This document shows positions 42,601 to 64,000 of a stretch of 64,000 bases of DNA, piece by piece. How positions within the stretch are numbered: the stretch's first letter is position 1; the number at the start of each line of letters is the position of its first letter. The DNA is taken from assembly GCF_027947535.2 (NCBI RefSeq), contig NZ_JAAGKO020000014.1, forward strand, positions 85,634 to 149,633, read 5' to 3'. The stretch comes from Streptantibioticus silvisoli. GTDB taxonomy: Bacteria; Actinomycetota; Actinomycetes; Streptomycetales; Streptomycetaceae. A model generated the notes under the pieces. The model ran no database searches, was not told the DNA's origin, and saw only the letters and a program-made list of their open reading frames with translations. The position numbers were made by a program, and so were the translations under genes.

Positions 42601-45600
42601 GTCGTTCGCGGACGCGGCCGACGGCACCGGCTGGGCCGAGGGCGTCGGGATGGTGGTGCTGGAGCGGCTCTCCGACGCCCGGCGCAACGGCCACGAAGTC
42701 CTGGCCGTGCTGCGCTCGAGCGCGGTGAACCAGGACGGTGCGTCGAACGGTCTGACCGCGCCGAACGGGCCGTCGCAGCAACGGGTGATCCGCCAGGCGC
42801 TGGCCGCGGCCGGACTGTCCACGGCGGACATCGATGCCGTGGAAGCCCACGGCACGGGTACGAAGCTCGGTGATCCGATCGAGGCGCAGGCGTTGCTGGC
42901 GACCTACGGTCAGGACCGGCCCGACGGCCGGCCGTTGTGGTTGGGCTCGCTGAAGTCGAACATCGGCCACACGCAGGCGGCGGCCGGTGTCGGTGGGGTG
43001 ATCAAGATGATCATGGCGCTGCGGCGCGGTGTGCTGCCGAAGACGCTGCACGTGGACGCGCCGTCGACGCAGGTGGATTGGGAGCAGGGCGACGTCCGGC
43101 TGCTGACGGAGTCGGTGCCGTGGCCGGAAACGGACCGCCCTCGGCGGGCCGGGGTGTCCTCGTTCGGCGTCAGCGGCACCAATGCGCACGTCATCCTCGA
43201 AGCGGCAGCCGGCGTCACCGCCCCACCCGGCGCCGACCCCGGCGGTGTCGTGCCGTGGGTGCTGTCCGGCAAGACGGAACAGGCGCTGCGGGCACAGGCG
43301 GCACGCTTGCTGGCGCACCTGGACCGCGACGCGCCGTGGCGGCCGGTGGACGTGGGCTGGTCGCTGATCGACTCGCGGACGGTGTTCGAGCACCGGGCTG
43401 TCGTCGTGGGCACCGATCAGGACGAGCTGCTGACCGCGGTGCGCGCCGTCGCCGCCGGCGAACCCGCCGCGGGTCTCGCCGAAGGCGTCGCCCGGGCCGG
43501 TGACGCGGTGGTGTTCGTCTTCCCGGGCCAAGGCGCCCAATGGGTGGGGATGGCTCAGGACCTGCTGGCCGAGTCGCCGGTCTTCGCCGAGTCGCTGCGC
43601 GAGTGCGCGGCGGCGTTGGCACCGTTCACCGACTGGTCGCTGGAGCAGGCGCTCGGTGACGCGGCCGCGTTGGCGCGAGTCGACGTCGTGCAACCGGTGT
43701 TGTGGGCGGTGATGGTGTCGCTGGCGGCGGTGTGGCGGTCGTTCGGGGTCGAGCCGGCCGCGGTGGTGGGGCACTCGCAGGGTGAGATCGCGGCCGCGTG
43801 CGTGGCCGGCGCCCTGTCCTTGTCCGACGGTGCCCGTGTGGTCGTCCTCCGCAGCCGCGCCATCGCCGACACCCTGGCCGGTGGCGGGGGCATGGTGGCC
43901 TTGCCGATGGCGGTCGCCGAGGTCGAGGAGCTGATCGCGCAGCGGCCGGCGGTTTCGGTGGCCGCGATCAACGGCCCGGCCTCCGTGGTGGTCGCCGGGG
44001 AGCCGCACGCCCTGGACCGATTGCTGGCCGACTGCGAGGACGACGGGATCCAGGCACGCCGGATCGCGGTGGACTACGCCTCGCACTCGCCGTCGGTGCA
44101 GCGGATCGAGGACCGGCTGCTGACGGACCTGGCCCCGGTCAGCCCCCGCTCGTCGACGGTTGCGGTCTACTCGTCGGTGACCGGACAGCTCGCGGACACC
44201 GCGTCGTGGGACGCCCGGTACTGGTACGACAACCTGCGCAACCCGGTCCTGTTCGAAACGGCGCTCACGGCCGCTCTCGACGCCGGCCCCGACGTGGTGA
44301 TCGAGGTCGGTCCCCATCCGGTGCTGGTCCCCGCGGTGCACGACATCGCGCGGCAGCGGGAAATGCCCGTGGCGGCGGTGGGAACACTGCGCCGCGACGA
44401 GGGAACCCTGCGGCGAATGGCCTTGTCGGTGGCCCACGCGTGCGCCCTGGGCGTCGAGGTGGACTGGGCGCGAATGTTCGCCGCCCGCGGTGCGCAGCGG
44501 GTCCCGTTGCCGACGTACGCCTTCCAACGCCGCAATTTCTGGCCGGACACGACCGGCGCCCGGGCCGATGTGTCCGCGGCCGGGCTGACAGCCGCGGACC
44601 ACCCGCTGCTGGGGGCGATGCTGCCGTTGCCGCAGACCGACGGGATGGTGTTCACCAGCCGGCTCTCCCTGCGGACGCATCCGTGGCTGGCGGACCACGC
44701 GGTGCGGGACGCGGTGGTCTTCCCCGGCACCGGGTACGTGGAACTGGCGATCCGGGCCGGCGACAGCGTCGGCTGCGACCACCTCGACGAACTCGTGCTG
44801 GAGGCGCCGCTCGTCCTGCCCGCGCACGCCGGGGTCCAGCTGCAGGTGGTCGTGGGGGACCTCGAGGCTCCCGCCGCGGCCGAAGCGCGCAGCGTCGCGG
44901 TGTACGCCCGAGTGGACGGCGAAGAGCTCTGGACCCGCCATGCCACGGGCGTGGTGAGCGCGGGCACGGGCGCGGCAGCCGACACCGGGCTGTTCGACCC
45001 GGTCAGCCGCGACTGGCCCGGGCCGGACGCGACGGCACTCGACACCGACCACTTCTACGACCGGCTCGCCGACGAGGGCTTCCTCCGGTACGGCCCGGTG
45101 TTCCGGGGGCTCACCCGGGCCTGGCAGCGCGGGGACCGGGTGCTGGCCGAGGTCGAACTGCCGGGGTCCGGGCGTGGCCCGGCCGAGTCGTTCGGGATCC
45201 ATCCGGCGCTGCTGGACGCGGCGTTGCACGCCTCGGTCTTCGCGGGACTGCGAGCGCGAGGAGCGTTGCCGTTCAGCTTCACCGGCGTGGCACTGCGCGC
45301 CTCGGGTGCGTCCCGGCTCCGGGTGGCGTTGACCCGGACCGGACCCGACGAGGTCGGCGTCGTGGTCGCCGACAGCAGCGGCGCGCCGGTGCTGTCGATC
45401 GGCTCGCTGGCCGTGCGGGCCGTGGCGAGCGGCAGCCTCGCCGCCGGCCCGGGCGACGGCGCCGCGCTGAAGGTCGGCTGGATCGCCGCCGACGGCCCGG
45501 CGGCGCCGGTGACGGACTGGCTCCTGGTCGATCGCGCCGGTTCGACCGGCGCCGCGTACACCGACCTCGTCGAGGCCGGTGCCGTACTTGCGGACGGCGC

Positions 45601-48600
45601 TCGTCCGCAGGCGGTGGTCCTGGCTGTGGCCGGCGACCGGGACGCGGTGGTGGACTCCGTTCACGAACTGACCGCCTGGGTGCTGGGGCAGTTGCAGCAC
45701 TGGCTGGCCGAGGACCGCTTCGCCCCGATCCCGCTGGTGGTGGCGACGCGGGGCGCGGTCACGGTCGACGCCGGCGAGCCGGTACGGGACCTGGCCGCGG
45801 CGGCGGTGTGGGGGCTGGTGCGCTCGGCGCAGACCGAGAACCCCGGCCGGATCGTCCTGCTCGACACCGGGACCGGCACCGAGCTGGACGAGGACGTCCT
45901 GGGCCGGGTGCTGAACACCGGAGAGCCGCAACTCGCATGGCGCGGCACCCAGTTGCACGCCGCCCGGCTGACGAGGGCCCGGCCGGCGGACGACCTGGTC
46001 GCACCGCGGACGGGACCGTGGCGGCTGGAGTCGAAGGAGAAGGGCACGCTGGAGAATCTCGCGTTGGTGCCGTGCCCCGAGGTGGCAAGTGCCCTGCGGC
46101 CCGGGCAGGTCAGGATCGAGGTGCGCGTGGCCGGCCTGAACTTCCGCGACGTGCTCAACGCCCTCGGCATGTATCGCGGTCAGGCCGGCCCGCTGGGCAG
46201 TGAGGTCGCCGGAGTGGTCACCGAGGTCGGCCCGCAGGTGACCGGGCTGGCCATCGGTGACCGGGTGATGGGCCTGGCCTTCGGCGGCTTCGGCCCGGTG
46301 GCCGTGACCGACCGGCGGCTGGTGACGGTGATCCCGGCCGGCTGGTCGTTCGCCGTCGCCGCGTCGGTGCCGATCGTGTTCCTGACGGCGTACTACGGCT
46401 TGGTGGACCTCGCGGATCTGCGGGCGGGCGAGTCGCTGCTCGTGCACGCCGGCACCGGTGGCGTGGGGCTGGCGGCCATCCAGCTCGGCCGGCATCTCGG
46501 CGCGGAGATCTACGCCACCGCGAGCGAAGGCAAATGGGGCGTCCTGCACCAATGGGGCATCGACGAAAGCCGGGTGGCTTCGTCGCGGACCCTGGACTTC
46601 AAGGAGCGCTTCCGCGCTGCCACCGACCGGCGCGGCGTCGACGTGGTGCTCAACTCGCTGGCCGGCGAGTTCGTGGACGCCTCGCTGGACCTGCTCGCAC
46701 CGGCCGGCCGCTTCGTCGAGATGGGCACGTCCGACATCCGCTCGGCCGAGGACCTGCGCGACCGCTACGCCGACGTGAGCTACCAGACGTTCGAACTGAC
46801 CGACGCCGGGTTCGACCGCATCCAGCAGATGCTGGCAGAACTCGTGAACCTGTTCGAAGCCGGTGAGCTGCGGCCGCTGCCGGTGCGCGGCTGGGACGTG
46901 CGCCAGGCCCAGGACGCCTTCCGGTTCATGAGCCAGGCCAAGCACGTCGGCAAGCTGGTGCTCACCGTCCCACGGGCACCTGACGCTTCGGGCACGGTCG
47001 TGATCACCGGCGCCGGCGCCCTGGGCGGCGCCCTGGCCCGCCACCTGGCCGGAGAGCACGGCATCCGGCACCTGCTGCTCGTCAGCCGACGCGGACCGGC
47101 CGCGCCGGGTGCCGCGGAGTTGGTCACCGAGCTGGCGGCGCGGGGCGCGACCGCGACGTTCGCGGCGTGCGACCTGACGGATCGGCAAGCTCTGGCCGCG
47201 GTGCTGGCCGGGGTTTCGGCGCAGCACCCGGTGACCGGGGTGGTGCACACCGCCGGGATCCTCGAGGACGGCGTCATCAGCTCGCTCTCGCCGCACCAGC
47301 TCGATCGCGTGCTGGCGCCGAAGGTCGACGCTGCATGGCACCTCCACGAGCTGACGCGGAATCTGGACCTGTCGTTCTTCGTGGTGTTCTCCTCCCTCGC
47401 CGGGTTGCTCGGCAGCGGCGGCCAGGCCAACTACGCCGCGGGCAACGCGTTCCTCGACGCTCTGGTGCGGCGCCGTCGTGAGCAGGGGCTGCCGGGCTCG
47501 TCGATGGCCTGGGGCGCCTGGACGACCGAGCTCGGGCTGGTGGGCACCTTGTCCCCGGCCGACCTTCGCCGCATCGAACGGTCCGCCCTGCCGCCGTTCT
47601 CGGTGGCCCAGGGCATGGACATGTTCGACCAGGCGATGCGCTCCAGCCAGCCGGTGCTCGGACTGGCCCGGCTGAACGCACGGGCGTTGCGGGCCCAGCA
47701 GGACGTGCCGGCCCTGTGGCGGTCGCTCGCCGGCGCCGCGCCGCGCCGCACCGCCGACAACACCCGCGACGGTCGCGGCGGGCCGGGGCAGCGATTGGCG
47801 GAGCTGTCCGTCGGGGAGCGTGAGCAGGCGCTGGCGGAGCTGGTCAGGGAGTCCGCCGCGGCGGTGCTGGGCCACGGCTCGGGGGCGCAGATCGACCCGG
47901 ACCGACCGTTTCGGGAACTGGGCTTCGACTCGCTGACGTCGGTGGAGCTGCGGAATCTGCTGCAGGCCAAGGCGGGTGCGGTGCTGGCGGCGAGCGTGGT
48001 GTTCGACTACCCGACGGTCACGCGGCTGGCGAGGCATCTGGCTGCCGGGTACGGCGCCGGGCAGCCGGCGGAGCCGCCCGCGGCGCCCGCGGTGGTGCCG
48101 GTTTCCGACGACCCGATCGTGCTGGTCGGCATGGCGTGCCGGTTCCCGGGCGGTGTCGCGGGTCCGGACGACTTGTGGCGGCTGGTCGCCGAGGGCGCCG
48201 ACGGCGTCACCCCGTTCCCGGCCGACCGCGGCTGGAACCTCGACGCCCTGATCGGGCGTGCGGGACCCGGTTCCGGAACCTCGGCGACCGGTGAGGGCGG
48301 GTTCCTCGCCGACGCCGACGCGTTCGACGCGGCGTTCTTCCGGATCTCGCCGCGCGAGGCGCTCGCCATGGATCCGCAGCAGCGGCTGCTGCTGGAGGTG
48401 TCGTGGGAAGCCCTGGAACAGGCGGGAATCGATCCGGGCTCGCTGGCGGGCAGCCCGACCGGCGTGTTCGCCGGCGCGTACGGTTCCGGTTACGGCGAAT
48501 TGGTCGCCCGCGGCAGCGACCAACTGCTGGGCCACCGGATGACGGGCGGCGCGACCAGCGTGATCTCCGGCCGGGTGTCCTACACGCTCGGCCTGGAGGG

Positions 48601-51600
48601 CCCGGCGGTGAGCGTGGACACGGCGTGCTCGTCGTCGCTGGTGGCGATGCACCTGGCGGCGCAGGCGCTGCGGGCCGGCGAGTGCACGCTGGCACTGGCC
48701 GGCGGGGTGACCGTGATGGCCTCGCCGGACACCTTCGTCGGCTTCACCGTGCAGGGCGGAATGGCCGCGGACGGCCGCTGCAAGTCCTTCTCCGACGCCG
48801 CCGACGGCGCCGGCTGGGCCGAGGGCGTCGGTGTCGTCGTGATGGAACGGCTGTCGGAGGCCCGTCGCAACGGTCACGACATCCTCGCTGTCCTCCGGTC
48901 GAGCGCGGTGAACCAGGACGGTGCGTCGAACGGGTTGACGGCGCCGAACGGTCCGTCGCAGCAACGGGTGATCCGGCAGGCGTTGGCGGCGGCGGGTCTG
49001 GCCACGTCGGACGTGGACGTGGTCGAGGCGCACGGTACGGGGACGAAGCTCGGTGATCCGATCGAGGCGCAGGCGGTGCTGGCGACGTACGGTCAGGACC
49101 GGCCCGAGGGCCGGCCGTTGTGGCTGGGATCGTTGAAGTCGAACATCGGCCACGCCCAGGCCGCCGCCGGAATCGGCGGCGTGATCAAGACGGTGATGGC
49201 GCTGCGCCACGGGGTGCTGCCCGCGACGTTGCACGTGGACCGGCCCTCCACCCAGGTCGACTGGACCCGGGGCAACGTGCGGCTGCTGACCGAAGCGGTA
49301 CCGTGGCCCGAAACCGGCCGCCCGCGGCGGGCCGGGGTGTCCTCGTTCGGGATCAGCGGCACCAACGCGCACGTGATCCTGGAGGCTCCCGCAGACACCG
49401 GCGTCGCCCCCGCCACCGACACCGGCGCTGTGGTGCCGTGGGTGCTGTCCGGCAAGTCGGCCGAGGCGGTACGGGCTCAGGCGGCCAAATTGCTGGGGTT
49501 CGTGGCGGCGGACCCGGCCTTGCGCCCGGTGGATGTGGGGTGGTCGCTGGCCGGTTCGCGGGCGGTGTTCGACCACCGCGCCGTGGTCGTGGGCGGCGAG
49601 CGGGCCGAGCTGCTGGCGGGTCTGCGTGCGGTCGCGGCTGGTGAATCCGTGCCCGATACGGTTCGACCGGGCACCCGGCTGGGTGTGCTGTTCACGGGGC
49701 AGGGTGCGCAGCGGGTGGGGATGGCCCGCGAGTTGTACGGCGGTTCGCCGGTGTTCGCGGGGGCGTTGGACGAGGTTCTCGCCGTGCTGGATCCGTTGCT
49801 GGATCGGCCGTTGCGTGAGGTGATGTGGGGCCGGGACGCGGAGCTGATCCATGAGACGGGGTGGGCGCAGCCGGCGCTGTTCGCGGTCGAGGCGGCGTTG
49901 TTCGAGGTGCTGCGCGCCTTCGGGGTGACCCCGCACTACCTGCTGGGGCATTCGATCGGTGAGGTGACAGCGGCGTACGTGTCGGGTGTGTGGTCGCTGG
50001 CGGATGCGTGCCGGGTGGTGGCGGCGCGGGCACGGTTGATGCAGGCGCTGCCTTCCGGCGGCGCGATGGCCGCACTGGAGATGTCCGAGGCCGAGATCGC
50101 CGACCTGCTGCCGGCCGGCGTGTCGGTGGCCGCGGTGAACACCGACGATTCGGTGGTGGTCTCGGGTTCTCGGGCCGGGGTGGACCAGGTGGTGGCGGCT
50201 GCGGGCGAGCGCGGCCGCCGGGTGTCGCGGTTGCGGGTGTCGCACGCGTTCCATTCGGCGTTGCTCGACCCGATGCTGGACGCGTTCACCCGGGTGCTGG
50301 AATCGGTGCGGTTCACAAAGCCGCGGATACCGGTGGTGTCCGATATGACCGGTCGTGTGGCGACGGCCGAGCAGTTGTGCTCGCCGCAGTACTGGGCCCG
50401 CCAGGTCCGGGAGCCGGTGCGGTTCGCCGACGGTGTGCGGTGGCTGGCCGAGCAAGGTGTGACGGCGATGGTCGAGCTGGGCCCGGACGGCGTGCTGTCC
50501 GCGCTGGCGCAGCGCAGCTGCGCTCCGGGGACGGTGGTGACACCGGTCCTGCGGCGTGAGCACGGCGACACGTCGACGCTGTTGTCGGCGATCGGCCAGC
50601 TGTACGCGCGAGGCGTGCCCGTGGACTGGACCCCGGCGTTCGCCGGTCGAGGAGGCACCCGGATCAGCCTGCCGACCTACGCCTTCCAACGGCAGCGCTT
50701 CTGGCCCGACGCGGCCGGCGGCCGGACCGAGGTCTCCGCCGGATTGCGGTCCGCGGACCACCCGCTGCTCGGCGCGGTGCTGTCGTTGCCGCAGTTCGAC
50801 GGCGTGGTCTTCACCAGCCGCCTGTCCCTGCGCACCCATCCGTGGCTCGCCGACCACGCGGTGCTCGACGAGGTGGTGCTGCCCGGTGCGGCGTACGTCG
50901 AGCTGGCGATCCGGGCCGGCGACAGCGTGGGCTGCGGCCGGCTGGACGGACTGGCGCTGGAAGCGCCACTGGTACTGCCCGCTCGAGGCGGCATGGAACT
51001 TCAGGTCGTGGTCGGCGGCGCCGACACCCCCGAACCCGAGGGGCGGCGGAGCGTCACGATCCACGCCCGCCCGGACGGTGCGGAGACCTGGACCCGGCAC
51101 GCCACCGCAGTGGTGAGCGCGGCTTCGCTGCCCGCCCGGACCGACGAATTGCTCCAAGCCGTCGGCGGGACCTGGCCGGTGCCCGGTGCGACGCCGGTGG
51201 ACATCGAGCGGGTCTACGACCGACTCGCCGACCTCGGGCTCGCATACGGGCCGGTGTTCCGGGGCCTGACCAAAGCCTGGCAGAGCGGGGACCGGATCTT
51301 CGCCGAGGTGGATCTGCCCGAGCCCGCCCGCGCGACGGCGGGTTCGTTCGGGATCCATCCGGCTCTGCTGGACGCCGCTTCACATCCGTTCGCCGTCGCG
51401 GGCGCCACCGCGGGCGCCACCGCGGGCGCGGACTCGGCCGGTTCCGGCCGGTTGCCGTTCCGGTTCACCGACGTGGTGCTGCGAGCCTCGGGTGCGGCCC
51501 GGCTCCGGGTGGCGCTGACGCCTCTCGGGCCGGACGAGGTGGCGCTGGCCGCCGCGGACAGCACCGGCAAGCCGGTGCTGTCGATCGGCTCGCTGGCCGT

Positions 51601-54007
51601 ACGGGCCCCGGCCGCCGGCAGCCGCACCGCCGGCGATCAGGTGCTGCTGCGGATGGAGTGGCTCGAGACCACCGGCGCCGCGGCTGCGGTGAGCGAGTGG
51701 CTGACGGTCGACGCCGCCTTCGAACGAGGGACGGCGCCGCAGGCTGCCGTGCTCAGCGTGTCCGGTGACCCGGACGCCGTCGTGGCGTCCACCCACGACG
51801 TGACCGGCCGGGTCAGGGGCCGGCTGCGGCGCTGGCTGGACGAGGAGCGGTTCGCCGCCGTCCCGCTGGTCGTGGTCACGCGGGGCGCCGTCGCGGTCGG
51901 GCCCGGTGAGCCGGTGACCGACGTGGCCGCAGCCGCCGTGTGGGGTCTGGTGCGTTCGGTGCAGGCCGATAACCCGGGCCGGGTCATCCTGCTCGACACG
52001 GACGCCGACCTCGACGCCGACGCGCTGGGGCGGGTCGTGGCCGCCGACGAGCCGCAGTTGGCCCTGCGCCGGGGCCGACTCCACGCCGCCCGGCTCACCC
52101 GGACCGGCGACGCCGGCGGACCGGTCACGTCACTGGTGCCCGGCACGGTCGCGATCACCGACGGTGAGCGGGCCCACGTGGTCGCACGGCACCTGGTCGC
52201 CGAGCACGGTGTCCGGCGTGTGCTGCTGCTCGGCCGACGCGGTCCGGACGAGCCGGAAACGGCGCAGCTGGTGGCGCAATTGGCTCAGCAGGGCGCCGAC
52301 GTCACGGTCACCGCGTGCGACGTGACCGATCGGCGAGCCCTGGCCGAGGTGTTGGCCTCGGTTCCCGCGGACCAGCCGCTCATCGGCGTCGTGCACACCG
52401 CCGAGGCTCACTCGTTGCCCGAGGAGGACTCCGACCCGGTACCGGGTCCGACGGTCGACGCGGCTTGGCATCTGCACGAACTGACCCGGGACCGGGATCT
52501 GGCGCTGTTCATGGTGTTCTCGTCGCTGGCCGGCCTTGAGGGCAGCGGCGGCCGGGGCGCCGACGCCGCGTTCCTGGCCGCACTGGCGTGGCACCGCCGC
52601 GATCAGGGCTTGCCGGGCGTGTCGATCGCCTGGGACGACCGGGTGGGCGAGCCGGCGTTGTCCGCGGCGCAGGAGATGGCGCTCTTCGACCGGGCGCTGG
52701 GCACCGGCGACGCGGTCTTTGCGGCGACCCGGCTGGATGTGCGGGCGCTGCGGGCCCGGCCGGACATCCCGGCGGTGTGGCGGTCTTTGGCCGGTGGTCC
52801 ACGCCGGCGGGCGGCCGACGACAGCCGGCCCGATCGCGAGGGGCTCAGGCAGCGGCTCGCCGGGCTGTCCGCAAGAGATCGCGAGGAGGTGCTGATCGAC
52901 GTGGTCCGCGAAGCGGTGGCGGCGGTACTGGGCCACACCTCGGGTGCGCCGATCGAACCGGACCGGCTCCTGGGTGAACTGGGTTTCGACTCGTTGACCG
53001 CGGTCGAACTGCGCAACTCGCTGCAGGCCAAAACCGGCGTGCAGCTGGCCGCGACCCTGGTGTTCGACCACCCGGACCTGCGGAGCCTCGCCACGGAACT
53101 GGACACGATATTGTCCGAACTGCCACGGGCCGGCGACCGGGGTGGTCCGCTTGCGGAACACCACGACTTGTTCGCTGAGCTCTATCTCGCGGCGATCGAG
53201 AACGGCCGGCCGGAACTCGGCGAAGAACTCATGATAAAAGCCGCGCGGTTGCGCGAGAAATTCGACGACCCGGCACAGGTGAAGGCGAAACCGGCCGTGG
53301 TCCGCATTTCCCCGGCGGGAGAGGGACCGCACCTGATCTGCGTGTGCCCGACGATCATGACCACCGGGCCACAGGTCTACCTCCGGTTCGCAGCCGAGCT
53401 CACGGGCCGGGGAAACCAGGTGTCGGCCCTGGTGCCTCCGGGGTTTGCCGCCGGCGAGCTCCTGCCCGCGACCCGGGCCGCGTTGGTGACCGGTCTGGCC
53501 GACACGGTCGAGGAATTCGTGGGTGGGACGGAGTTCTCCCTGGCCGGGCACTCCTCCGGTGGGGTGGTGGCGTACGAGCTCGCCCAGGAGCTGCACACCC
53601 GCGGCCTGGCTCCCGCCGGCCTGGTGCTGCTCGACACCTACACCTTGAACCTCAAGGGCGAGCGGGGCGTGTTCGACGACGAAAACCTGCAGCGCGCGTT
53701 GAGCACCAGGCTGGTCGAGTACGTGCGCCGGATGGGCTTCGACACGCTGTCCGAACGGATCACCGCGCAGCTGTGGAACCTCGATCTGCTCAGGGGCTGG
53801 CGGCCTGAGGGGATTTCGGTGCCGTCGCTGTACATCCGCTCGACGCAGGCCCTCGCGCACGGCGGCGGGGGCGAATGGCGTGATGAAGTGGCCGCCGCGG
53901 CGGCCACGGTCGTCGAAGTGCCCGGTGACCACTTCACCATGCTGGAAGCCGAGCACGTGAGCTCGACGGCCAGGGCCGTCGGGGAATGGCTGGAGACCGT
54001 GCGGTGA
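36671..54007 (+). CDS. Modular type I polyketide synthase PKS-C (modules 8-10 plus thioesterase)
   Basis: A 5778-residue terminal PKS protein. ATG 36671 follows GGAGG (36661-36665) with ideal spacing. The N-terminal docking helix resembles that of PKS-B. Domains are KS-AT-DH-KR-ACP (module 8), KS-AT-DH-ER-KR-ACP (9), KS-AT-DH-KR-ACP (10) and a type I thioesterase. Presence of the thioesterase marks the end of the assembly line: it releases the finished chain as a macrolactone or acid. The KR of module 10 is extensively decayed, and the DH of module 8 lacks its YGPxF segment. Last gene of the PKS operon; the next 165 bp hold no gene. Confidence 0.98.
36773..41880 (+). other. PKS module 8: KS-AT(malonyl)-DH(doubtful)-KR-ACP
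   Basis: KS Cys207. AT Ser658 (GHSIGE) and HAFH (755-758), so malonyl. DH keeps His962 ([10 protein letters not shown]) and HPALLDAA, but the conserved FYERL...YGPxFxGL stretch is replaced by a short unrelated sequence near residues 1073-1090 ([14 protein letters not shown]). The KR (about 40811-41400) is B-type (VVDD) with GQANYAAGN and looks active. ACP Ser1695. Product: a double bond if the DH works, otherwise a hydroxyl. Confidence 0.88.
41930..48050 (+). other. PKS module 9: KS-AT(methylmalonyl)-DH-ER-KR-ACP
   Basis: KS Cys1925. AT Ser2369 (GHSQGE) and YASH from Tyr2469, so methylmalonyl. DH His2676 with Asp in place of the HxxxG glycine. The ER has Tyr3168, the 2S-methyl type, in contrast to modules 3 and 7. 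The KR has a cofactor loop one residue short (GAGALGG) but keeps ILED and [12 protein letters not shown] Ser3754. Expected outcome: fully reduced, methyl-branched unit. Confidence 0.92.
48110..53110 (+). other. PKS module 10: KS-AT(malonyl)-DH-KR(inactive)-ACP
   Basis: KS Cys3986. AT Ser4428 and HAFH (4525-4528), so malonyl. DH His4729 is present, followed by a 12-bp triplication giving GATAGATAGA near 51398-51433. The KR remnant (about 52136-52660) has lost the GTGGLG cofactor motif, has Thr5261 for the catalytic Lys, and lacks the NYAAxN catalytic segment. No hydroxyl can form, so the DH has no substrate and the chain should leave as a 3-ketoacyl thioester. ACP Ser5441. Confidence 0.9.
53300..54004 (+). 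other. Terminal thioesterase domain (chain release)
   Basis: An alpha/beta-hydrolase domain after the last ACP and a linker of about 60 residues. The nucleophile elbow is GHSSGG with Ser5628. The other predicted triad members are Asp5655 (LLDTYT) and His5754 (GDHFTML). Length and motif order fit macrolactone-forming PKS thioesterases. Whether it cyclises or hydrolyses cannot be read from the sequence. Confidence 0.95.
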
Positions 54008-55103: not shown

Positions 55104-56408
55104 TCAGCCGGCAGTTCGCTGATCCGAGGTGAGGTTCACCCACGTGCAGGCCAGTTCCACTCGCGAAGAGACCTCCATCTTGCGGAAGATCTTCTTCAGA
55201 TGGAACGCCACGGTGTGCGCGGAGATGTAGAGCTGACGGCCGACCTGCACGTTCGTCAGGCCCCGGCTCACCAGGTTGGCCACCGCGAACTCGGTGTCGG
55301 TGAGGGAGCCGGTGCGGTGTCCGTCGTGGCGCATCGGCCGCCGCACGCGGCCCGATCGCACGCCGAGATCACGAAGCTTGCTCGCGACCCGAGCGAGGTC
55401 GCGGGCCGCGCCGGCCCGCTCGTAATCGGCGGCCGCGCGTTTCAACTGTTCGACGGCACGATCCTGGCCCAGACGCAGCGAGGACCACGTCCGGGCCAGG
55501 TCTTCGGCGGCCGACGCCGACGCCCAGCCGTCCGAATACAGCTCGCAAGCGGCGCGCAGTTTATCGGGATCCTTTTCGAACAGCCCTTCGGCGTGCAGCG
55601 CCGCCGCATGGGGCGAACGAAAACCCCACGACTTCACGGTGAGCGACTCGGCCTGCACGACACACTTGAAGGCCAGTCGCTCGTCCCCCATGCTTCGCGC
55701 GAGGCGGACGTGCCACGCCGCGGCGGCGGGCTGAGACGCGAAGAGCTCCCGCGTCAGCTGGTCGTCGGCGATCAGGCGCTCGACGAGGTGACTGACGCCG
55801 GCCGGACCGCCGTCGGCCTCGAACGCCTGGGCGGCGGCCCACACGCACTGCCCGGGCACGTGCGCGGTACGGCCGAGCAGGGCGTCATCGCCCAGGTTGC
55901 GCGCGAATCGCAGGCCGGTCGACGTGTCGGACTGCCGGACGGCGCTCAGCGCCAGGACGACATGCAGGTCCGGCAGCAAGGTGTAGGCGCCGGCCCCTTC
56001 GGCCAGCCCGAGGCCGATGTTCGCCTCGGCGAACGCACTGCCGGCGTCACCCGACGCGAGTGCGAACTCGGCGCGGCAGGTGGTCAACGCGGCTGAAACA
56101 CCGGCGTCGTCGGCGACATCGCACGAGGTGGTCAACTCGTCGAGCAGCCGCGTGGCCTCCGGAAGTTCGCGGACGCGGGTCAGGAGCCGGGCGTGCCAGA
56201 TCTTGGCGAGCCTTGGGTCGTGCTCGTCACCGCCGGGTGCGGCGGCCAGCTCGATGGCCCGGCGGACCTCACCGGCGAGCCAGGCGGACAGGGAGCGTGC
56301 GAGCGGGTTGTCCAGGCGGTCGTCGGCCGCGTTGGCGGTAGGACCTTCAGACGGTGTGTGGGGCAGCTGGGTGGGTAACTGGCACCGGCCATCACGCATG
56401 ACGCCCAT
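55104..56408 (-). CDS. LuxR-family transcriptional regulator with helical repeats, no ATPase domain
   Basis: A 434-residue protein. The C-terminal 60-odd residues (about 370-430: LTDTEFAVANLVSRGLTNVQ onward) form a NarL/LuxR helix-turn-helix. The upstream part is helical, TPR-like and Ala-rich, resembling the C-terminal half of the large LAL regulators that control PKS clusters. No Walker A or B motif is visible, and the protein is less than half the usual LAL length. Next to the PKS operon it is a good candidate pathway regulator. ATG 56408 has AAAGG very close upstream; ATG 56399 is an alternative start with wider spacing. The start could therefore be 3 residues shorter. Confidence 0.85.
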   Translation of the reverse strand: MGVMRDGRCQLPTQLPHTPSEGPTANAADDRLDNPLARSLSAWLAGEVRRAIELAAAPGGDEHDPRLAKIWHARLLTRVRELPEATRLLDELTTSCDVADDAGVSAALTTCRAEFALASGDAGSAFAEANIGLGLAEGAGAYTLLPDLHVVLALSAVRQSDTSTGLRFARNLGDDALLGRTAHVPGQCVWAAAQAFEADGGPAGVSHLVERLIADDQLTRELFASQPAAAAWHVRLARSMGDERLAFKCVVQAESLTVKSWGFRSPHAAALHAEGLFEKDPDKLRAACELYSDGWASASAAEDLARTWSSLRLGQDRAVEQLKRAAADYERAGAARDLARVASKLRDLGVRSGRVRRPMRHDGHRTGSLTDTEFAVANLVSRGLTNVQVGRQLYISAHTVAFHLKKIFRKMEVSSRVELACTWVNLTSDQRTAG

Positions 56409-58170: not shown

Positions 58171-58554
58171 CCGGAGCCCCGTGCTGAACATCATGGGACT
58201 GCCTGGCGACGGACACGACTGCACCATGAAGCGCCGTCAGGACTCGTGAACATCCACCGTGCCATTGGTCGCTGACTGCTGCTCAACTCATCGACCAACG
58301 CTGTCGTCGAAGATGAACGAAGCCGGGGTGCGGGGTGCCGGCCGGTGGTGTGTTGTCGGCAGGGTGTTCGTCGTCGTGTCATCACTGCGGCGAACCCGTG
58401 CGTTCACGCCCTGGAAGGCAGTGCACGGCCGTGGGGGACCCCGCCGTGCAGCTCGAGGCCGTCCTGCGGGTCGGGGACTGTGGGCGACGATGGCGGCTGG
58501 GGGCGGCAGCCTGTCTGCGGGGGCCTTCACGTCCAGAGAAAGCGGTGCGTCGTC
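58171..58554. other. No gene seen (384 bp upstream of the methyltransferase)
   Basis: The methyltransferase frame is open back to 58345, but residues before 58555 are rich in Cys, Arg and Gly and unlike the family. This stretch probably holds the methyltransferase promoter, which I cannot locate, plus the end of the IS remnant. Confidence 0.5.
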
Positions 58555-59439
58555 ATGAGTTCGTTCAACCAGTGGGACATCGTGTCCGGGGTCGGTGTCA
58601 CCGCGCTCGGGGTCGCTGCGGCCCGGGCACTGGAGACGCACCGTTCCGGCGCGCTCGTCACAGATCCCTACGCCTCGGCGTTCGTCGAGGCCGCCGATGC
58701 GCCTGTTCCTCTGCCTTCGCATCCGAGGGATCTTGACAGCCAGGCGTGGAAGGGCGACACGGTGTGGATGTCGATGGCCACCTACGTGGCCGTGAGGTCG
58801 CGTTTCTTCGACGACTTCTTCGCGCGGGCTACTGCCGACGGTATAGGCCAGGCCGTTCTTCTGGCGGCCGGGCTGGACACCCGGGCGTTCCGGCTGGATT
58901 GGCCGGCTGGCTGCCGGCTGTTCGAGGTCGATCAGCCGAGGGTGCTGGAGTTCAAGGACACCGTGCTCGGCGAGCAGCAGGCACAGGCCCGGTGCGATCG
59001 GCGGGCGGTCGCGGTGGACCTGAGGGACGACTGGGCGGCCGCCCTGCACGACGCGGGCTTCGATACCACCCGACCGACCGCGTGGCTCGCCGAGGGACTG
59101 CTGCCCTACCTGCCGGCCGATGCGGAAAACAACCTGTTCGCCACCATCCACCGCCTCTCGGCCCCCGGCAGCCGGATCGCCGTCGAGCACGTGGACACCC
59201 AGTCTCTGGGGATGTTCGACGAGGAGGAGATGACGCAGGCGGGCCAGCAGATGGGAGTCGACATCTCCACACTCCTGCACAACGAGGACAAAGAGCACCC
59301 CGAGCGTGTGCTGACCGGCCTGGGATGGACAGCACGCTCCGACACGGCACAGCAGACCGCACGCCGGTACGGCCGGGAACTGGACGGGACGATGGGTCGC
59401 AACGGCGGAAAGCTGGAGTACATCACAGCAAGCCGGTGA
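58555..59439 (+). CDS. SAM-dependent methyltransferase (LCMT / TIGR00027 family)
   Basis: A 294-residue class I methyltransferase. Motif I is VLLAAGLDTR (101-110), the acidic ribose-binding loop is FEVDQP (123-128), and the family signature WLAEGLLPYLPAD spans 177-189. Length and motifs match the actinobacterial TIGR00027 group related to leucine carboxyl methyltransferases, which often methylate carboxylates or hydroxyls of small molecules. ATG 58555 gives the standard N-terminus (MSSFNQWDIVSGVGVTAL); the frame upstream does not look coding. It is separated from the PKS by IS debris and stands alone on the plus strand, so a link to the polyketide is uncertain. Confidence 0.9.
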   Translation: MSSFNQWDIVSGVGVTALGVAAARALETHRSGALVTDPYASAFVEAADAPVPLPSHPRDLDSQAWKGDTVWMSMATYVAVRSRFFDDFFARATADGIGQAVLLAAGLDTRAFRLDWPAGCRLFEVDQPRVLEFKDTVLGEQQAQARCDRRAVAVDLRDDWAAALHDAGFDTTRPTAWLAEGLLPYLPADAENNLFATIHRLSAPGSRIAVEHVDTQSLGMFDEEEMTQAGQQMGVDISTLLHNEDKEHPERVLTGLGWTARSDTAQQTARRYGRELDGTMGRNGGKLEYITASR

Positions 59440-59826: not shown

Positions 59827-59876
59827 GTGCCGGCAGTTGACGCCGCGCTGCCCGCCGTGCCAGCAACCGACGCCGC
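59821..59876 (+). repeat. Two 30-bp-period repeats encoding PAVPAVDAA-like units
   Basis: CCCGCCGTGCC followed by a GACGCCGC end recurs at 59821 and 59851. The units encode the Pro/Ala/Val-rich start of the telomere-associated protein and suggest that its first 60-75 residues are a variable, probably disordered tail. Confidence 0.8.
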
Positions 59877-61020
59877 CCCGGCGCTCACCGTCCTGGCGCC
59901 GGGGGCCGCGATTCCCCCCGAACTGCCCGCCGTTGATGCGGTTGAGGTTCCCGCAGTCCCGACCACGGTGGTGGAACCCACCACGGCGCTCGCTTCGCCG
60001 GTACGGCGTTCACCGGTAGCCGGGAGCGCGGCGGGGAGTGCCACCGGGCCGGAGGTGCTGACCGCCCGGATCCGCGCTAACGTCTCCGCTGCTCTGGAAG
60101 CGCATGGCGGGGACGTCGAAGCCGCGACGAAGTTCCTGGACAAGAAGCGTGCCCTGGTGGACGTCATGGAGCTGTTCAAGCTGTCCCGCGTCGGGGGCCG
60201 TTACGAACACTCGGAGTTTCCCCCGACCGCCGACATCCTCAAGAAGCGGACGCAGAAGGGCCCGGACGAAATCTGGGAAGGTCGCCCGAAGTGGCGTAAC
60301 TCTGCTCTCGTCGAGGCGGTGAAGGGGGCTGCTGAGCCGATCGAGGTGGTCGCGCTCGATATGAATGCGGCGTTCCTGTCCGCGCTGAAGGCGCATCTGC
60401 CGATCGGCCGGCTGGAGCCCGACACCACCGGTGTCCACAATCGTAAGCGTTCCGGTGTCCATCGCATCACTCCACCCGGCTGGGACCACCAGGACCTGCC
60501 CAACCCCCTGGGTGCCCGTCAGGAGCCGGGTCCGTTGTGGGTTGCCGAGCCCACACTCCGTCTGCTGTTCGAGGCCTCCCGGCTCGGCTTGTGCGACGTA
60601 CCGGTCATCCACGAGTCCTTGACTTCGGGTGCGACCGAGGGTCTGGTGGAGAAGCTCCGGCGTGCTCTCGTCGCGGCCCGCCGTGAGGCGATCGAGACCG
60701 ACGACGATGTGATGTACGAGTATGTGAAGTCGATGTATTCCAAGTTTGTGTCCACGATTGGGGAGTCGACGACCAACCGGGAGCTGCGCCGTCCGGACTG
60801 GGTGCACATCTTCCGCGCTCAGGCGTTCGCGAATCTTTGGCGTAAGGCGTACAAGCTGCGTCAGGCCGGCCTGGCCGCGCCCGAGTCCGGCTTGGCTGTG
60901 TATGAGATGTCGGGCACGGACGAGCTCCATGTACGTGGCGACTGGCGCCAGGTGTTCACCGAGGGTCGCGCTCCGGATCAGGTTAAGCTCAAGCGTGCCT
61001 ACATGATCGGGGGCCGCTGA
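59827..61020 (+). CDS. Putative telomere-associated replication protein with DNA-polymerase-like motifs
   Basis: A 397-residue protein from GTG 59827; the first 75 or so residues are Ala/Pro/Val-rich, so the true start may lie later, for example GTG 60055. Three motifs occur in the order and spacing of a family-B polymerase palm: VVALDMNAAFLSAL (Asp178; compare motif A DxxSxYPS), YVKSMYSKFVSTIG (Lys301-Gly312; compare motif B), and VYEMSGTDEL (Asp365; compare motif C YGDTDS, keeping the second Asp). No exonuclease domain is visible. It lies 1 bp upstream of a Tpg-like gene, as tap lies before tpg in Streptomyces, near a palindromic end. It is about half the length of archetypal Tap. A compact protein-primed polymerase, or a Tac/GtpB-type partner of the terminal protein, is my inference. 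The protein could instead be a non-catalytic telomere-binding factor. Confidence 0.6.
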   Translation: MPAVDAALPAVPATDAAPALTVLAPGAAIPPELPAVDAVEVPAVPTTVVEPTTALASPVRRSPVAGSAAGSATGPEVLTARIRANVSAALEAHGGDVEAATKFLDKKRALVDVMELFKLSRVGGRYEHSEFPPTADILKKRTQKGPDEIWEGRPKWRNSALVEAVKGAAEPIEVVALDMNAAFLSALKAHLPIGRLEPDTTGVHNRKRSGVHRITPPGWDHQDLPNPLGARQEPGPLWVAEPTLRLLFEASRLGLCDVPVIHESLTSGATEGLVEKLRRALVAARREAIETDDDVMYEYVKSMYSKFVSTIGESTTNRELRRPDWVHIFRAQAFANLWRKAYKLRQAGLAAPESGLAVYEMSGTDELHVRGDWRQVFTEGRAPDQVKLKRAYMIGGR

Positions 61021-61021
61021 A

Positions 61022-61606
61022 GTGGCGGGTCGCTGGCGGGACTTCGGCCTCTACGGTGCCCAGGGCATGCCCGGTAGCGCGGCACTGGCCCAGCAGTTGC
61101 AGGAGGTGGTGCGCGCGACCGGGATCGCCTCCCCGATCACTACACGCCGCGGCCTGTCGGCCCGCCTGCGCTACCTGGCCTCCAAACCGGGCCGCGCGGC
61201 ACTCACCGAGGCCGGGGTCACGGTCCGCCCGTCTGTGTTGCGTGCCTACGCCGACGGTACCCGCGCTCCCCGTCCTGCCACTCTCGGCAAGATCGAGCGG
61301 GCCTACTTCGAACGCCGTGCGGAGAACATGATCCGCTCCGGTGCCCTGCAAAAGCATTTCGAGCAGGACGGCGCCGGCACGCGTATGGAGATCTACCCTG
61401 TTGACCAGTCCCAGGTCAGCGATCCCCGCCGACGGGTCCTCGGCGACAGGACCGTCACGGTCCGGTACGTGTGGGGTGATCTGGTCCACGCCTGGGACGA
61501 GGGCGACGACGCGACCATGGACGACATCTGGGACAGCATCATCAACGACCTGATCGGTTCCGACTACGATGCCTACTCCTACGTCACCGGCGTCGGATTC
61601 GCCTGA
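61022..61606 (+). CDS. Putative telomere terminal protein (Tpg-like)
   Basis: A 194-residue protein, close to the usual size of Tpg (about 185). The layout follows Tpg: a basic N-terminus with GLSARLRYLASKPG (44-57), a helix-turn-helix (about 59-92, ending RAPRPATLGKIERAY), a middle segment, and an acidic C-terminus (DDATMDDIWDSIINDLIGSD). Tpg caps 5' ends of linear actinomycete replicons and primes end patching through a covalently bound Thr. Thr120 is a speculative equivalent. GTG 61022 starts 1 bp after the upstream stop, so translation is probably coupled. Similarity to archetypal Tpg is in architecture rather than clear identity, so this may be a divergent class. An ordinary XRE-type regulator is the alternative. 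Confidence 0.62.
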   Translation: MAGRWRDFGLYGAQGMPGSAALAQQLQEVVRATGIASPITTRRGLSARLRYLASKPGRAALTEAGVTVRPSVLRAYADGTRAPRPATLGKIERAYFERRAENMIRSGALQKHFEQDGAGTRMEIYPVDQSQVSDPRRRVLGDRTVTVRYVWGDLVHAWDEGDDATMDDIWDSIINDLIGSDYDAYSYVTGVGFA

Positions 61607-61836
61607 CCTGACACCACCCCGCCGAAAGCCGCCGCTAACCGCCCACCGCTAACCGCTCACATCGACGTCGCCCCTCGCCGTTGCGCGCGGTCCGCACAGG
61701 CGCTGCGCCGGCTGGAGCAGTCCCGGGGCTCCGCCCGTCAGCCGGAGCCTGGGAGGGCTTGGCACAGGTTTTGATGTCGGCCCGTCAGGCCGCCGGTGTG
61801 CTGCCCGTGATGCTGCTGCCAGAGGTGAGGTGAGGC

Positions 61837-61866
61837 CACCCCCGGGATCAAGAGGCGCCGGGGGTG
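61837..61866. terminator. GC-rich hairpin, probable terminator
   Basis: A perfect 9-bp stem (CACCCCCGG at 61837-61845, CCGGGGGTG at 61858-61866) with a 12-nt loop lies between the telomere operon (ends 61606) and the convergent secreted-protein gene (ends 61949). It could stop transcription from either side. Confidence 0.6.
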
Positions 61867-61888
61867 CCGGGGGTGGCGGGCGTGGCGG

Positions 61889-61943
61889 GGTGGTGTGGTG
61901 GTGTGGTGTGGTGGTGTGGTGTGGTGGTGTGGTGTGGTGTGGT
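61889..61943 (+). repeat. GT-rich simple-sequence tract (GGTGT/GGT units)
   Basis: About 55 bp built only of GGTGT and GGT units, ending a few bases past the stop codon of the minus-strand gene. The rest of the 343-bp gap between 61607 and 61948 holds a duplicated CCGCTAACCGC near 61632 and the hairpin above, but no gene. Confidence 0.9.
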
Positions 61944-61948
61944 CGGGG

Positions 61949-62209
61949 TCAGGGGCAGCGCATGGTGAGGTTGGCTTCCCAGTCGAAGGGGTTGTTGTCG
62001 TAGGTGATCAGGTAGTTGATGGTCTGGACGTAGCAGCCGGGGAACTGGGCCTCGGCGTTGGCCATGGCGGCTTGTGAGCTGGTGCCGAACCCGATGGCCT
62101 GGTAGGTGCCGGCGGGCGGCGTGGCGGGCCGTACGGCGGCGGAGGCGGGCGCGGCAATGCCGAGGGCGAGGGCCGCAACGGCGGCGGCGGTGAGTGCGAG
62201 TCGTCTCAT
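61949..62209 (-). CDS. Small secreted protein of unknown function
   Basis: An 86-residue protein with a clear Sec signal peptide: MRR, a hydrophobic Ala/Leu stretch, and ASA before cleavage near residue 24. The mature part of about 60 residues has two Cys (59 and 85), likely a disulfide, and motifs GTYQAIGFGTSSQAAMANAE and NPFDWEANLTMRCP. I do not recognise the family; short secreted proteins of this kind with a hypothetical label are common in Streptomyces. ATG 62209 was chosen because upstream residues are Arg/Gly/Ser-rich and not signal-like. A hairpin touches the start codon and no Shine-Dalgarno is evident. Confidence 0.8.
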   Translation of the reverse strand: MRRLALTAAAVAALALGIAAPASAAVRPATPPAGTYQAIGFGTSSQAAMANAEAQFPGCYVQTINYLITYDNNPFDWEANLTMRCP

Positions 62210-62225
62210 GGCAGGAGAGCCTGCC
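62210..62225 (-). promoter_or_regulatory. Hairpin directly upstream of the secreted-protein start codon
   Basis: In mRNA sense the sequence GGCAGG-CTCT-CCTGCC (6-bp perfect stem, 4-nt loop) ends right before the ATG. It covers the place where a ribosome binding site should be, so it may restrain translation or indicate a leaderless or otherwise controlled start. Confidence 0.55.
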
Positions 62226-63096
62226 GGGTGTCGTGCCGAGGGGGGAATCGGCACGGACGGGTTCCGGATGCCGTTACCGCGATCCGGCCCCGGAACTCGC
62301 CCCGCAGTGCTGCACATGTGCCACGGAGTAAGACAGTGGCCAAGGGAAAACTGGGCTGATTTCCGCAGCTGCCCCGTGAGACCGGGGACCGTGTGGCTCT
62401 CGGGGCACCGGCATGGCCTCCGCCGAGGGCCAGAATCCGACAGAGCCACTACGCCGGCCGACGCACACCTCGACCGACGCGCCCCCACCCGACATCCGTC
62501 CGGACAGACTGCGGCAGTGCCGCCCGACGACGTCCTCGTCGACCACCTCATGCCCCCGCCGCGCCGCGCTCCGCGACCGGCCTTGACCACACCGCCACCC
62601 GCCTCCGGCACACTGCCGGGTGATGAACGCGACGCTCTCCGAACGGTGTTGGTGCTGCCCACCGTCCGCTATGAAGCCCGCGCCGAAACGCCGACCGCGC
62701 CACGCCGCCGGCCCGGTCCGTTACCGTCGTCGGCCCGGTAACGTGCTCGTCGTTGGGGCCACCGAGATGGGTTTGGCCGTCGGTGTGACTGCGCCCGGAT
62801 CAGCGAGTGCCCCGGTAACTCCGTCAGCGCGTAAACCATCCGACCCGTCGACCCGGGCGACAGTGGCGGGGGAGTGATGACGGAACGCCGACCAGGCGGC
62901 CGGGCCGCTCGCACCGACCAGCTCGTCGTCCAGCGGGCCAGCTGCCGCAAGCCCGAGCAGCACGTCCGCCCACCGCAACGCCCGTCCCTTCACCGCCTAT
63001 TGGGCCCGTCCGACGGCGCACTGGGCCTGTCACGTGGTCGGCTCGATCCGGTCGAGGTCGGCAACCGCAGCGACGACCTCCGGCTCCTCGGCCGGG
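62226..63096. other. Subtelomeric stretch with no confident gene
   Basis: Several open frames overlap here, as expected at this base composition, but none has a recognisable domain. The least unlikely is 62721-62993 on the minus strand (starting MKGRALRWADVLLGLAAAGP). One clear structure is a perfect 8-bp inverted repeat, CGTTACCG (62719-62726) with CGGTAACG (62736-62743), around a 9-nt loop. Confidence 0.5.
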
Positions 63097-63100
63097 GCAT

Positions 63101-63621
63101 ATTGCGGTTTCTGCATATTGGATGCGAGGGAGAACTTACTCAGGCAGAGGCCGAGTTGCGGTTTGTGCATACGCGCCACAGCGCCGGCCTCCCGTGCCTG
63201 CCTGCCGCTGCGGAACGCCCCCAACATCTCGTGGAGGAGCCAACTGCCGCGCCGCACAACGTCTTCCAGCGCCGTGGGAGCCACACAACGCCACCAGTGG
63301 GGAATCGCCGGCTGCGACCGTGGTTCCCCACTGGCCCCACTCTCTGGTGGACCCGCCGGTCAACTTTTCAGCATCAGGCATGCCTTCACCTCGCCGACGA
63401 CGTCCACCCCCTGACGCCGTCCGCCCGACTCCTGTACGTCCCGCGTAGGTGTCACCCACTCCGCGCGAAGGACGAATTGCGGTTTCTGCATGCCGCACAG
63501 CGGTCAGGAAGCGCATCGGGCGACCGTCGCGTTTATCCGGAAGTCCCTGTAAAAGGGGTGGACTTGTTCGTCCGGCCGCCGAAATCGCAAGTTCAACAGA
63601 GCGAGATTGCGAATACTGCAT
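63101..63621 (+). repeat. Four spaced copies of a 16-bp element (iteron-like)
   Basis: ATTGCGGTTTCTGCAT occurs exactly at 63101-63116 and 63476-63491. A 14-of-16 copy lies at 63155-63170 (GTTGCGGTTTGTGCAT) and a 13-of-16 copy at 63606-63621 (ATTGCGAATACTGCAT). All are in the same orientation. The ATTGC and GCAT ends resemble imperfect half-sites. A binding site for the telomere-associated protein is a reasonable guess. Confidence 0.75.
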
Positions 63622-63758
63622 TCCCATCCATGGCTATCGGCTGACGAAGAGTCAGGAAATAGAGTCAAGAGGTATAGACCACATAACCATGCCAATAAAA
63701 CTAGCGCAAAGTAGCGCCTACCTTCACTTGACAAAACGTCAGAGGAGACTCCTCCCAT
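63504..63758 (-). CDS. Possible small membrane protein
   Basis: An 84-residue frame starting ATG 63758, with GGGGAG 7 nt upstream. Residues 16-34 (YFALVLLAWLCGLYLLTLF) could be one transmembrane helix, followed by a polar tail containing SIRNLALLNLRFRR. The N-terminal pattern slightly recalls VanZ-type proteins, but it is too short to assign. The region is notably AT-richer than the rest of the window, and one 16-bp repeat lies within the frame, so it may not be coding. Confidence 0.3.
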   Translation of the reverse strand: MGGVSSDVLSSEGRRYFALVLLAWLCGLYLLTLFPDSSSADSHGWECSIRNLALLNLRFRRPDEQVHPFYRDFRINATVARCAS

Positions 63759-63856
63759 ATGAGATCTCCCCATCGGGCCTCTGAGGGACACTCACTTGGA
63801 ATCCGCGCCCAGCTTGCGCCCCCATCCGAGCAGCTGAAATGGGAGAGTTGACTCGA

Positions 63857-63933
63857 TGGCCAGCAGTGCGACGGATCGCCGGCCAGTCGCCGAAGGCGAT
63901 TGGCCCCCACCGCTCACCCCGCACTGCTGGCCA
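63857..63933. repeat. Nested telomeric palindrome (cruciform-like)
   Basis: The outer arms TGGCCAGCAGTGCG (63857-63870) and CGCACTGCTGGCCA (63920-63933) pair perfectly over 14 bp. Between them is a second hairpin, GGCCAGTCGCC (63881-63891), loop GAA, GGCGATTGGCC (63895-63905), with one G-T wobble. Together they form a stem carrying an inner stem-loop. Confidence 0.9.
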
Positions 63934-63950
63934 GCGGCGCGAAGCGCCGC
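63934..63950. repeat. Telomeric hairpin GCGGCGC-GAA-GCGCCGC
   Basis: A perfect 7-bp stem with a GAA triloop. The centre, GCGAAGC, is known as an exceptionally stable DNA mini-hairpin. It abuts the nested palindrome to its left. Confidence 0.92.
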
Positions 63951-63959
63951 AGCGTCTTT

Positions 63960-63978
63960 GGTGTCGCGTAGTGACACC
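63960..63978. repeat. Telomeric hairpin with GTA loop
   Basis: GGTGTCGC (63960-63967), loop GTA, GTGACACC (63971-63978): an 8-bp stem with one mismatch, again leaving a C-GNA-G type apex. Confidence 0.85.
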
Positions 63979-63985
63979 GCGTCGT

Positions 63986-64000
63986 GTCTCCGAAGGAGAC
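63986..64000. repeat. Terminal hairpin ending on the last base
   Basis: GTCTCC (63986-63991), loop GAA, GGAGAC (63995-64000): a perfect 6-bp stem whose last base is the last base of the window. In canonical Streptomyces telomeres the first palindrome also reaches the terminal nucleotide. This suggests that the window end is the replicon end. Confidence 0.9.

Follow-up and report, generated by a model that had tools for sequence, protein, structure and literature searches.

How does a linear replicon of Streptantibioticus silvisoli complete its ends, and does the contig examined here reach one of them? The stretch that we analysed, hereafter the window, comprises 64,000 nucleotides of a draft genome (8.70 Mb in 130 contigs) and corresponds to bases 85634-149633 of contig C37; an original prediction had described its last 144 bases as a non-canonical telomere that would be atypical or new. 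In the reading that we favour, and consider likely, the window ends in a linear end of the Sg2247 type, the overhang of which would be filled in by means of a primer, the putative terminal protein (TP; 194 aa, 61022-61606, + strand), and a partner with a predicted phi29-type fold, the putative telomere-associated protein (TAP; a 397-aa open frame from GTG, 59827-61020, + strand), of which a full-length copy is present on a second contig, C113. Five elements of this reading were shown by computation: the match to the telomere class, the convergence of two contigs on one terminal sequence, the TAP-TP operon, the co-occurrence of telomere and genes among genomes, and the predicted fold.

Structure and class of the terminal sequence

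Folding with DNA parameters placed an outermost telomere stem enclosing one nested hairpin at 63857-63933 (+ strand), followed on the same strand by hairpin III (63934-63950), hairpin II (63960-63978, its loop closed by C-G), and hairpin I (63986-64000), which extends to the final base of the contig. The last three hairpins are separated by 9 nt (63951-63959) and 7 nt (63979-63985), the shorter spacer reading GCGTCGT, of which GCGTC is common to 14 aligned tips; the five stem-loops, one of them nested, and both spacer lengths had been predicted correctly to the base. The fold energy of the last 144 nt of the + strand was −50.0 kcal/mol vs. −31.7 (sd 3.1) in dinucleotide shuffles (z = −5.9), none of 200 shuffles folded as well, and the minus strand of the same interval, 63857-64000, gave a z of −7.0. 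Read on the would-be 3′ overhang strand, the 3-base loops of hairpins III, II, and I are GAA, GTA, and GAA, and the tight packing of stem-loops with GNA-type hairpins (GGA/GAA/GTA) by which Sg2247-type telomeres are recognised was found in the terminal interval. The archetypal tip string GGTACCCGCTCCGCGG (palindrome I) had 0 forward and 0 reverse matches in the whole draft genome, which bears out the claim that the tip is not canonical.

Comparison of the terminal sequence with known atypical ends, a check that accompanied the original prediction, was performed by searching the last 600 bases with BLASTN against 72,556 plasmid records, 50 of which matched at E ≤ 10. Among the 20 of these that were listed, the match lay within 10 bp of the record end in eight (NZ_CP134204, NZ_CP108520, NZ_CP109451, NZ_CP108091, NZ_CP108620, NZ_CP108555, NZ_CP108254, and NZ_CP041652), 110 bp from the end in one (NZ_CP108296), and internally in 11. 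The left end of pSCAT and both record ends of pSGZL present hairpin II, GCGTCGT, hairpin I, and CGCGC in that order, and the window shares the first three of these elements, with a 36-bp BLAST match of its tip to bases 8-43 of pSCAT (E = 0.01). Different sequences were found at the right end of pSCAT, at the archetypal left end of SAP1, and, in the deposited versions of NZ_CP041652, NZ_CP108620, and NZ_CP108520, at the opposite end of each record. The accessible part of one survey gives S. rimosus, S. albidoflavus J1074, pSCAT, and pSGZL as members of the Sg2247 type (PMC8743542).

Judged by its sequence, the window end is a Sg2247-type telomere, a known non-standard class, with which it shares the tip order hairpin II-GCGTCRT-hairpin I, the GNA loops, and the probable position at a replicon end; it differs in the sequence of the inner stem-loops and in that the longest tips of the class are up to 9 nt longer, and, relative to the telomeres as published, it has a terminal-protein gene pair attached. 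The suggestion of a new telomere class could draw on the sequence inside of hairpins I and II, which is unlike that of the fetched relatives, but it is contradicted by the hairpin II, GCGTCGT, and hairpin I held in common with pSCAT and pSGZL, both published Sg2247 members, and we give it almost no credence.

From the start of GCGTC onward, the window and NZ_CP041652, which ends at the same base, have 22 nt vs. 27-31 nt in seven fetched relatives, which extend 5-9 nt past the window end (CGCGC...); the tip may therefore lack as many as 9 nt, and contig C37 may end a few nucleotides short of the true tip.

Evidence for a replicon end

The window end is also the end of its contig, since C37 totals 149,633 bases and the window stops at base 149633. 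A second copy of the TP/TAP gene pair is borne by contig C113 (24,846 bp), the final 127 bases of which are identical to window positions 61155-61281 and close an alignment that spans 1,364 bases with 93.8% identity. An exact overlap of 127 bases at a contig end is what an assembler using k = 127 leaves at a graph junction, and two arms therefore appear to enter the same terminal 2.85 kb. This sequence (61155-64000), entered by both C37 and C113, appears from the two-contig junction to be a terminal repeat, probably an inverted one of at least 2.85 kb.

The window end is thus likely to be the end of a linear replicon, and this part of the original prediction, a non-canonical telomere, is well supported by the matches to plasmid ends, the two-contig junction, and the gene pair situated 2.4 kb inside the window end; only the proposal of a new class falls away. 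Were 64000 no DNA end, the contig would merely break at a strong cluster of inverted repeats, an internal pseudo-telomere, as might be supposed from the short contigs of the draft and from other genomes in which the motif also occurs internally (e.g., G331:C41, G361:C1); however, those internal copies continue past the tip, whereas the window copy stops where the terminal ones do, the same terminal sequence is joined by two contigs, and the TP and TAP genes lie very close to it, making this explanation highly improbable. The copies within contigs, which run on into other sequence, were located at 1853-1898 of G331:C41 and approximately 3.1 kb from both ends of G361:C1, and possible readings of them are pseudo-telomeres or traces of end-to-end joins.

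Co-occurrence of the telomere and the gene pair

Fourteen tips, that of the window among them, served to build a covariance model spanning hairpin II, the spacer, and hairpin I; these tips covary (25 cells with two-sided changes vs. 6.6 in shuffles). Among 394 Streptomycetaceae genomes, 120 contained a TP gene (E ≤ 1e-5) and 81 a match to the telomere model (E ≤ 0.01), 62 of the latter being TP-positive. At E ≤ 1e-4, there were 74 matches, 57 of which pointed outward and were no more than 40 nt from a contig end; these were distributed over 45 genomes, every one of which (45/45) contained a TP gene, and no terminal match was found in any of the 274 TP-negative genomes (Fisher 6e-27). Of the remaining 17 matches, that on G292:C1 is also terminal, its genome having already been counted, and 16 do not count as terminal under this criterion; in five TP-negative genomes, all matches are of the non-terminal kind. 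When the ten genomes that had donated tips to the model (G292 among them) were left out, all 35 of the 35 remaining genomes were still TP-positive (p = 1e-21).

Helix covariation, which backs hairpins I and II, was recovered in genomes that were not tip donors, where 27 matches at 24 loci, in an alignment fitted to the model and including a few rows that are internal copies, gave 38 cells vs. 6.9. For the 42 ends at which a tip and a TP gene occupied one contig, drawn from the matches listed down to E = 0.01, the two were within 12 kb of each other in 36, with a median of 6.3 kb. The archetypal tip string was present in 44 of the 394 genomes, four of them TP-positive, and stood at contig bases 2-17 in 12 genomes, all TP-negative; ends of TP-negative genomes were therefore captured too.

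The gene pair and the predicted fold of TAP

TP homologues numbered 106 at E ≤ 1e-3 and, where named, nearly all derive from Streptomycetaceae, with one from Nocardia. In plasmids, the TP family matched 155 records, and among the 15 best matches, 13 genes were situated no more than 5 kb from the record end (the exceptions being H31 and H33). One family member, at 78149-78697 of NZ_CP041652.2 (pRLB1-9.2), has 47.6% identity; as far as the accessible text of PMC7205883 goes, a plasmid of that strain, there written pRLB1-9.1, encodes no Tap/Tpg homologue at a cut-off of 50% identity. Pfam and NCBIfam searches of the window TP/TAP pair returned only transposase-like and DUF matches far below cut-off.

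TAP lies directly upstream of TP. A TAP partner was found in 77 of 80 named TP-family loci, being nearly full-length, free of stops, and adjoining TP in 72 of the 80. Its relatives are mostly longer and carry an N-terminal helix-turn-helix (HTH)-type domain, with BetR above cut-off in P0108 and P0114 and below it in P0109. Between the window and C113 copies of TAP, 59 of 83 differences fall at third positions, and 62 codons differ silently vs. 16 that do not; this predominance of silent differences indicates that the region evolved under purifying selection during at least some of the interval since the two diverged. The source names of TAP relatives, 'acyltransferase' and 'dihydrolipoamide S-succinyltransferase', were discounted, the predicted fold being that of a polymerase palm; they might stem from the Ala/Pro-rich linker.

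The region of TAP encoded at 60046-61017 (+ strand) is predicted with high confidence to fold like the polymerisation domain of the phi29 DNA polymerase, with its palm-fingers arrangement (AlphaFold2 pLDDT 93.3; Foldseek, VIA-align). The TAP strings DMNAAF, MYSKF, and TDELH, resembling motifs A, B, and C, align with DVNSLY, LYGKF, and TDSIH of phi29, and the Asp of motif A (D105) and the second Asp of motif C (D292; alignment A3 numbering, with the phi29 correspondence taken from hhalign) are present in 79 of 79 TAP sequences. Relative to the phi29-type protein-primed polymerases that it resembles, TAP has no exonuclease domain in its modelled part, has an HTH in its full-length relatives, and would patch an end and not copy a whole replicon.

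Relation to described telomere-replication systems

The canonical Tap (NF047542) and Tpg (NF047541) models remained below cut-off genome-wide, with best scores of 24.7 of 600 and 12.9 of 90 bits, both on contigs other than C37, and had no match to the window TP/TAP pair. Profile comparisons yielded a probability of 68% (E = 4.7e-5) for TAP vs. Tap and 40% (E = 2.9e-4) for TP vs. Tpg. The two systems are alike in that a TP of ~190 aa is preceded by a TAP with an HTH (in our case, seen in the full-length relatives) and in the predicted polymerase fold of the TAP, which the canonical Tap of S. venezuelae (P0246) also shows, less confidently than TAP; they differ in that ours is missed by both hidden Markov models, has remote profile similarity only, and accompanies a different telomere. 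Canonical Tap was searched for in 61 relatives; in 37 Streptomycetaceae genomes, four had both TP and an above-cut-off Tap, 11 TP only, 17 Tap only, and five neither (p = 0.006). In the accessible part of PMC8743542 (2021), no homologues of Tap, Tpg, Tac, or Tpc were found in Sg2247 genomes, and the authors of the J1074 genome, in the available portion of PMC3937824, assume a novel, unidentified Tap/Tpg pair.

The pair might equally belong or not belong to the family of S. griseus GtpA/GtpB, which would be compatible with our favoured reading and which, like ours, is an atypical operon of TAP and TP genes that accompanies a non-archetypal telomere, the comparison being one of descriptions only. 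The TP family is present in S. anulatus, S. californicus, and S. cyaneofuscatus, which are relatives of S. griseus. Kinship is also suggested by the report, in the portion of PMC7205883 available, that the GtpB-GtpA operon is an atypical TAP/TP pair in which GtpA shares 18% identity with Tpg, and that every strain of one Streptomyces population has homologues; on the other side, the Sg13350 and Sg2247 telomeres are given as separate classes in the accessible part of PMC8743542. If the pair is of the GtpA/GtpB family, its genes are known, and novelty would be confined to the polymerase fold and to the link with Sg2247 telomeres; since Tap, Tpg, Tac, and Tpc are what that same part of PMC8743542 lists as not found, this link would still be new.

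Evidence against the proposed system

Several observations weigh against a Sg2247-type end served by TP and TAP, beginning with the association itself. The genomes share ancestry, and the p-values therefore overstate the evidence, inflating the association; no telomere match at a contig end was obtained for 75 of the 120 TP-positive genomes; and among 33 ends chosen from TP-positive genomes, many of them possibly incomplete, the motif was present in 14, cut off or variant in three, and absent from 16, compared with 0 of 4 control ends (a plain text search of the 33 ends counted 15, including one chance string). We also counted against the association G154, a TP-negative genome with a weak terminal match (E = 9.7e-4) that has no GCGTCRT. 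The palindrome-rich contig end at G154:C4 1-160, in a genome that has no member of the TP family, has a different tip and is possibly another type of telomere.

If the telomere were real and the gene pair travelling subtelomeric cargo, another system would prime the end, and the TP-positive genomes with no terminal match, the four TP-positive genomes among the 44 with the archetypal tip string, and the four of 37 with both TP and canonical Tap would be accommodated. This is improbable given the presence of TP in 45 of 45 genomes with a terminal match vs. no terminal match in 274 TP-negative genomes, the canonical Tap and Tpg scores below cut-off in the draft genome, and the remote similarities of TP to Tpg and of TAP to Tap.

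As regards the proteins, the window TAP begins inside the linker and has no HTH, and a tblastn search with six longer relatives detected no N-terminal HTH upstream of its frame; the C113 copy retains the HTH region. The first Asp of the phi29 DTD (motif C) is replaced by Gly in 76 and His in three of the 79 sequences, leaving the DTD incomplete, the hhalign comparison of the TAP profile with the single phi29 polymerase sequence was not significant (probability 0.6%, E = 0.098), and a PDB sequence-profile search with TAP gave 0 matches. The Ser of PVDQS, a candidate for the TP priming residue, is not conserved in all alignment rows.

The replaced Asp, the modelled part lacking an exonuclease domain, and the non-significant comparison with phi29 would suit a TAP that has the polymerase fold and no catalysis, a docking scaffold on which another polymerase (e.g., DinB) adds nucleotides to TP. 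Against this stand the conservation of two Asp, of YSKF in motif B, and of TDELH, and the 2015 report that canonical Tap, which has the same predicted fold, polymerises on Tpg in the absence of an added polymerase (PMC4513846); we regard the scaffold as unlikely.

Other features near the end

Three copies of TTGCGGTTTSTGCAT in one orientation (63102-63116, 63156-63170, and 63477-63491, + strand) occur in the last 0.9 kb, and a genome search detected none elsewhere in the 8.7 Mb, even with one mismatch allowed; by this distribution, TTGCGGTTTSTGCAT is a telomere-linked element. A run of TGGTG/TGTGG units was seen by eye at 61880-61945, between TP and the last kilobases. Further inside, a 5,778-aa open reading frame (36671-54007), which by eye resembles a modular polyketide synthase, terminates 10 kb short of the telomere and is followed downstream by a LuxR-type gene (55104-56408) and a methyltransferase-like gene (58345-59439).

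Proposed mechanism and implications

Replication forks from an internal origin would, in keeping with known Streptomyces biology, leave the + strand single-stranded at the window end. This overhang is predicted to fold into the GNA-loop hairpins, the last two helices of which are backed by covariation, and an HTH-bearing TAP together with its TP would dock on them. The TAP palm would then attach the initial nucleotides to a hydroxyl group on TP, after which a host polymerase would finish the fill-in and TP would remain on the 5′ end.

More broadly, and with somewhat less assurance than for the window end itself, we think that the TAPs of Streptomyces, canonical Tap and the Sg2247-class TAP alike, may well constitute one cell-encoded lineage of phi29-type polymerases, each with its own TP and telomere hairpins and trimmed to make the first short stretch of an end, such that the telomere classes would be co-inherited sets of polymerase, primer, and template. 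Two gaps in the published record concern the completion of Streptomyces chromosome ends. Tap and Tac are reported to make DNA on their terminal proteins, yet no polymerase motif has been reported in them, and B-family polymerases are reportedly not encoded in Streptomyces (PMC4513846); and the accessible part of PMC8743542 records no end-patching proteins for Sg2247 telomeres. The predicted phi29-type fold with its conserved Asp residues, and the presence of the pair in 45 of 45 genomes with a terminal match, would open both gaps to direct testing through point mutants and labelling in vitro.
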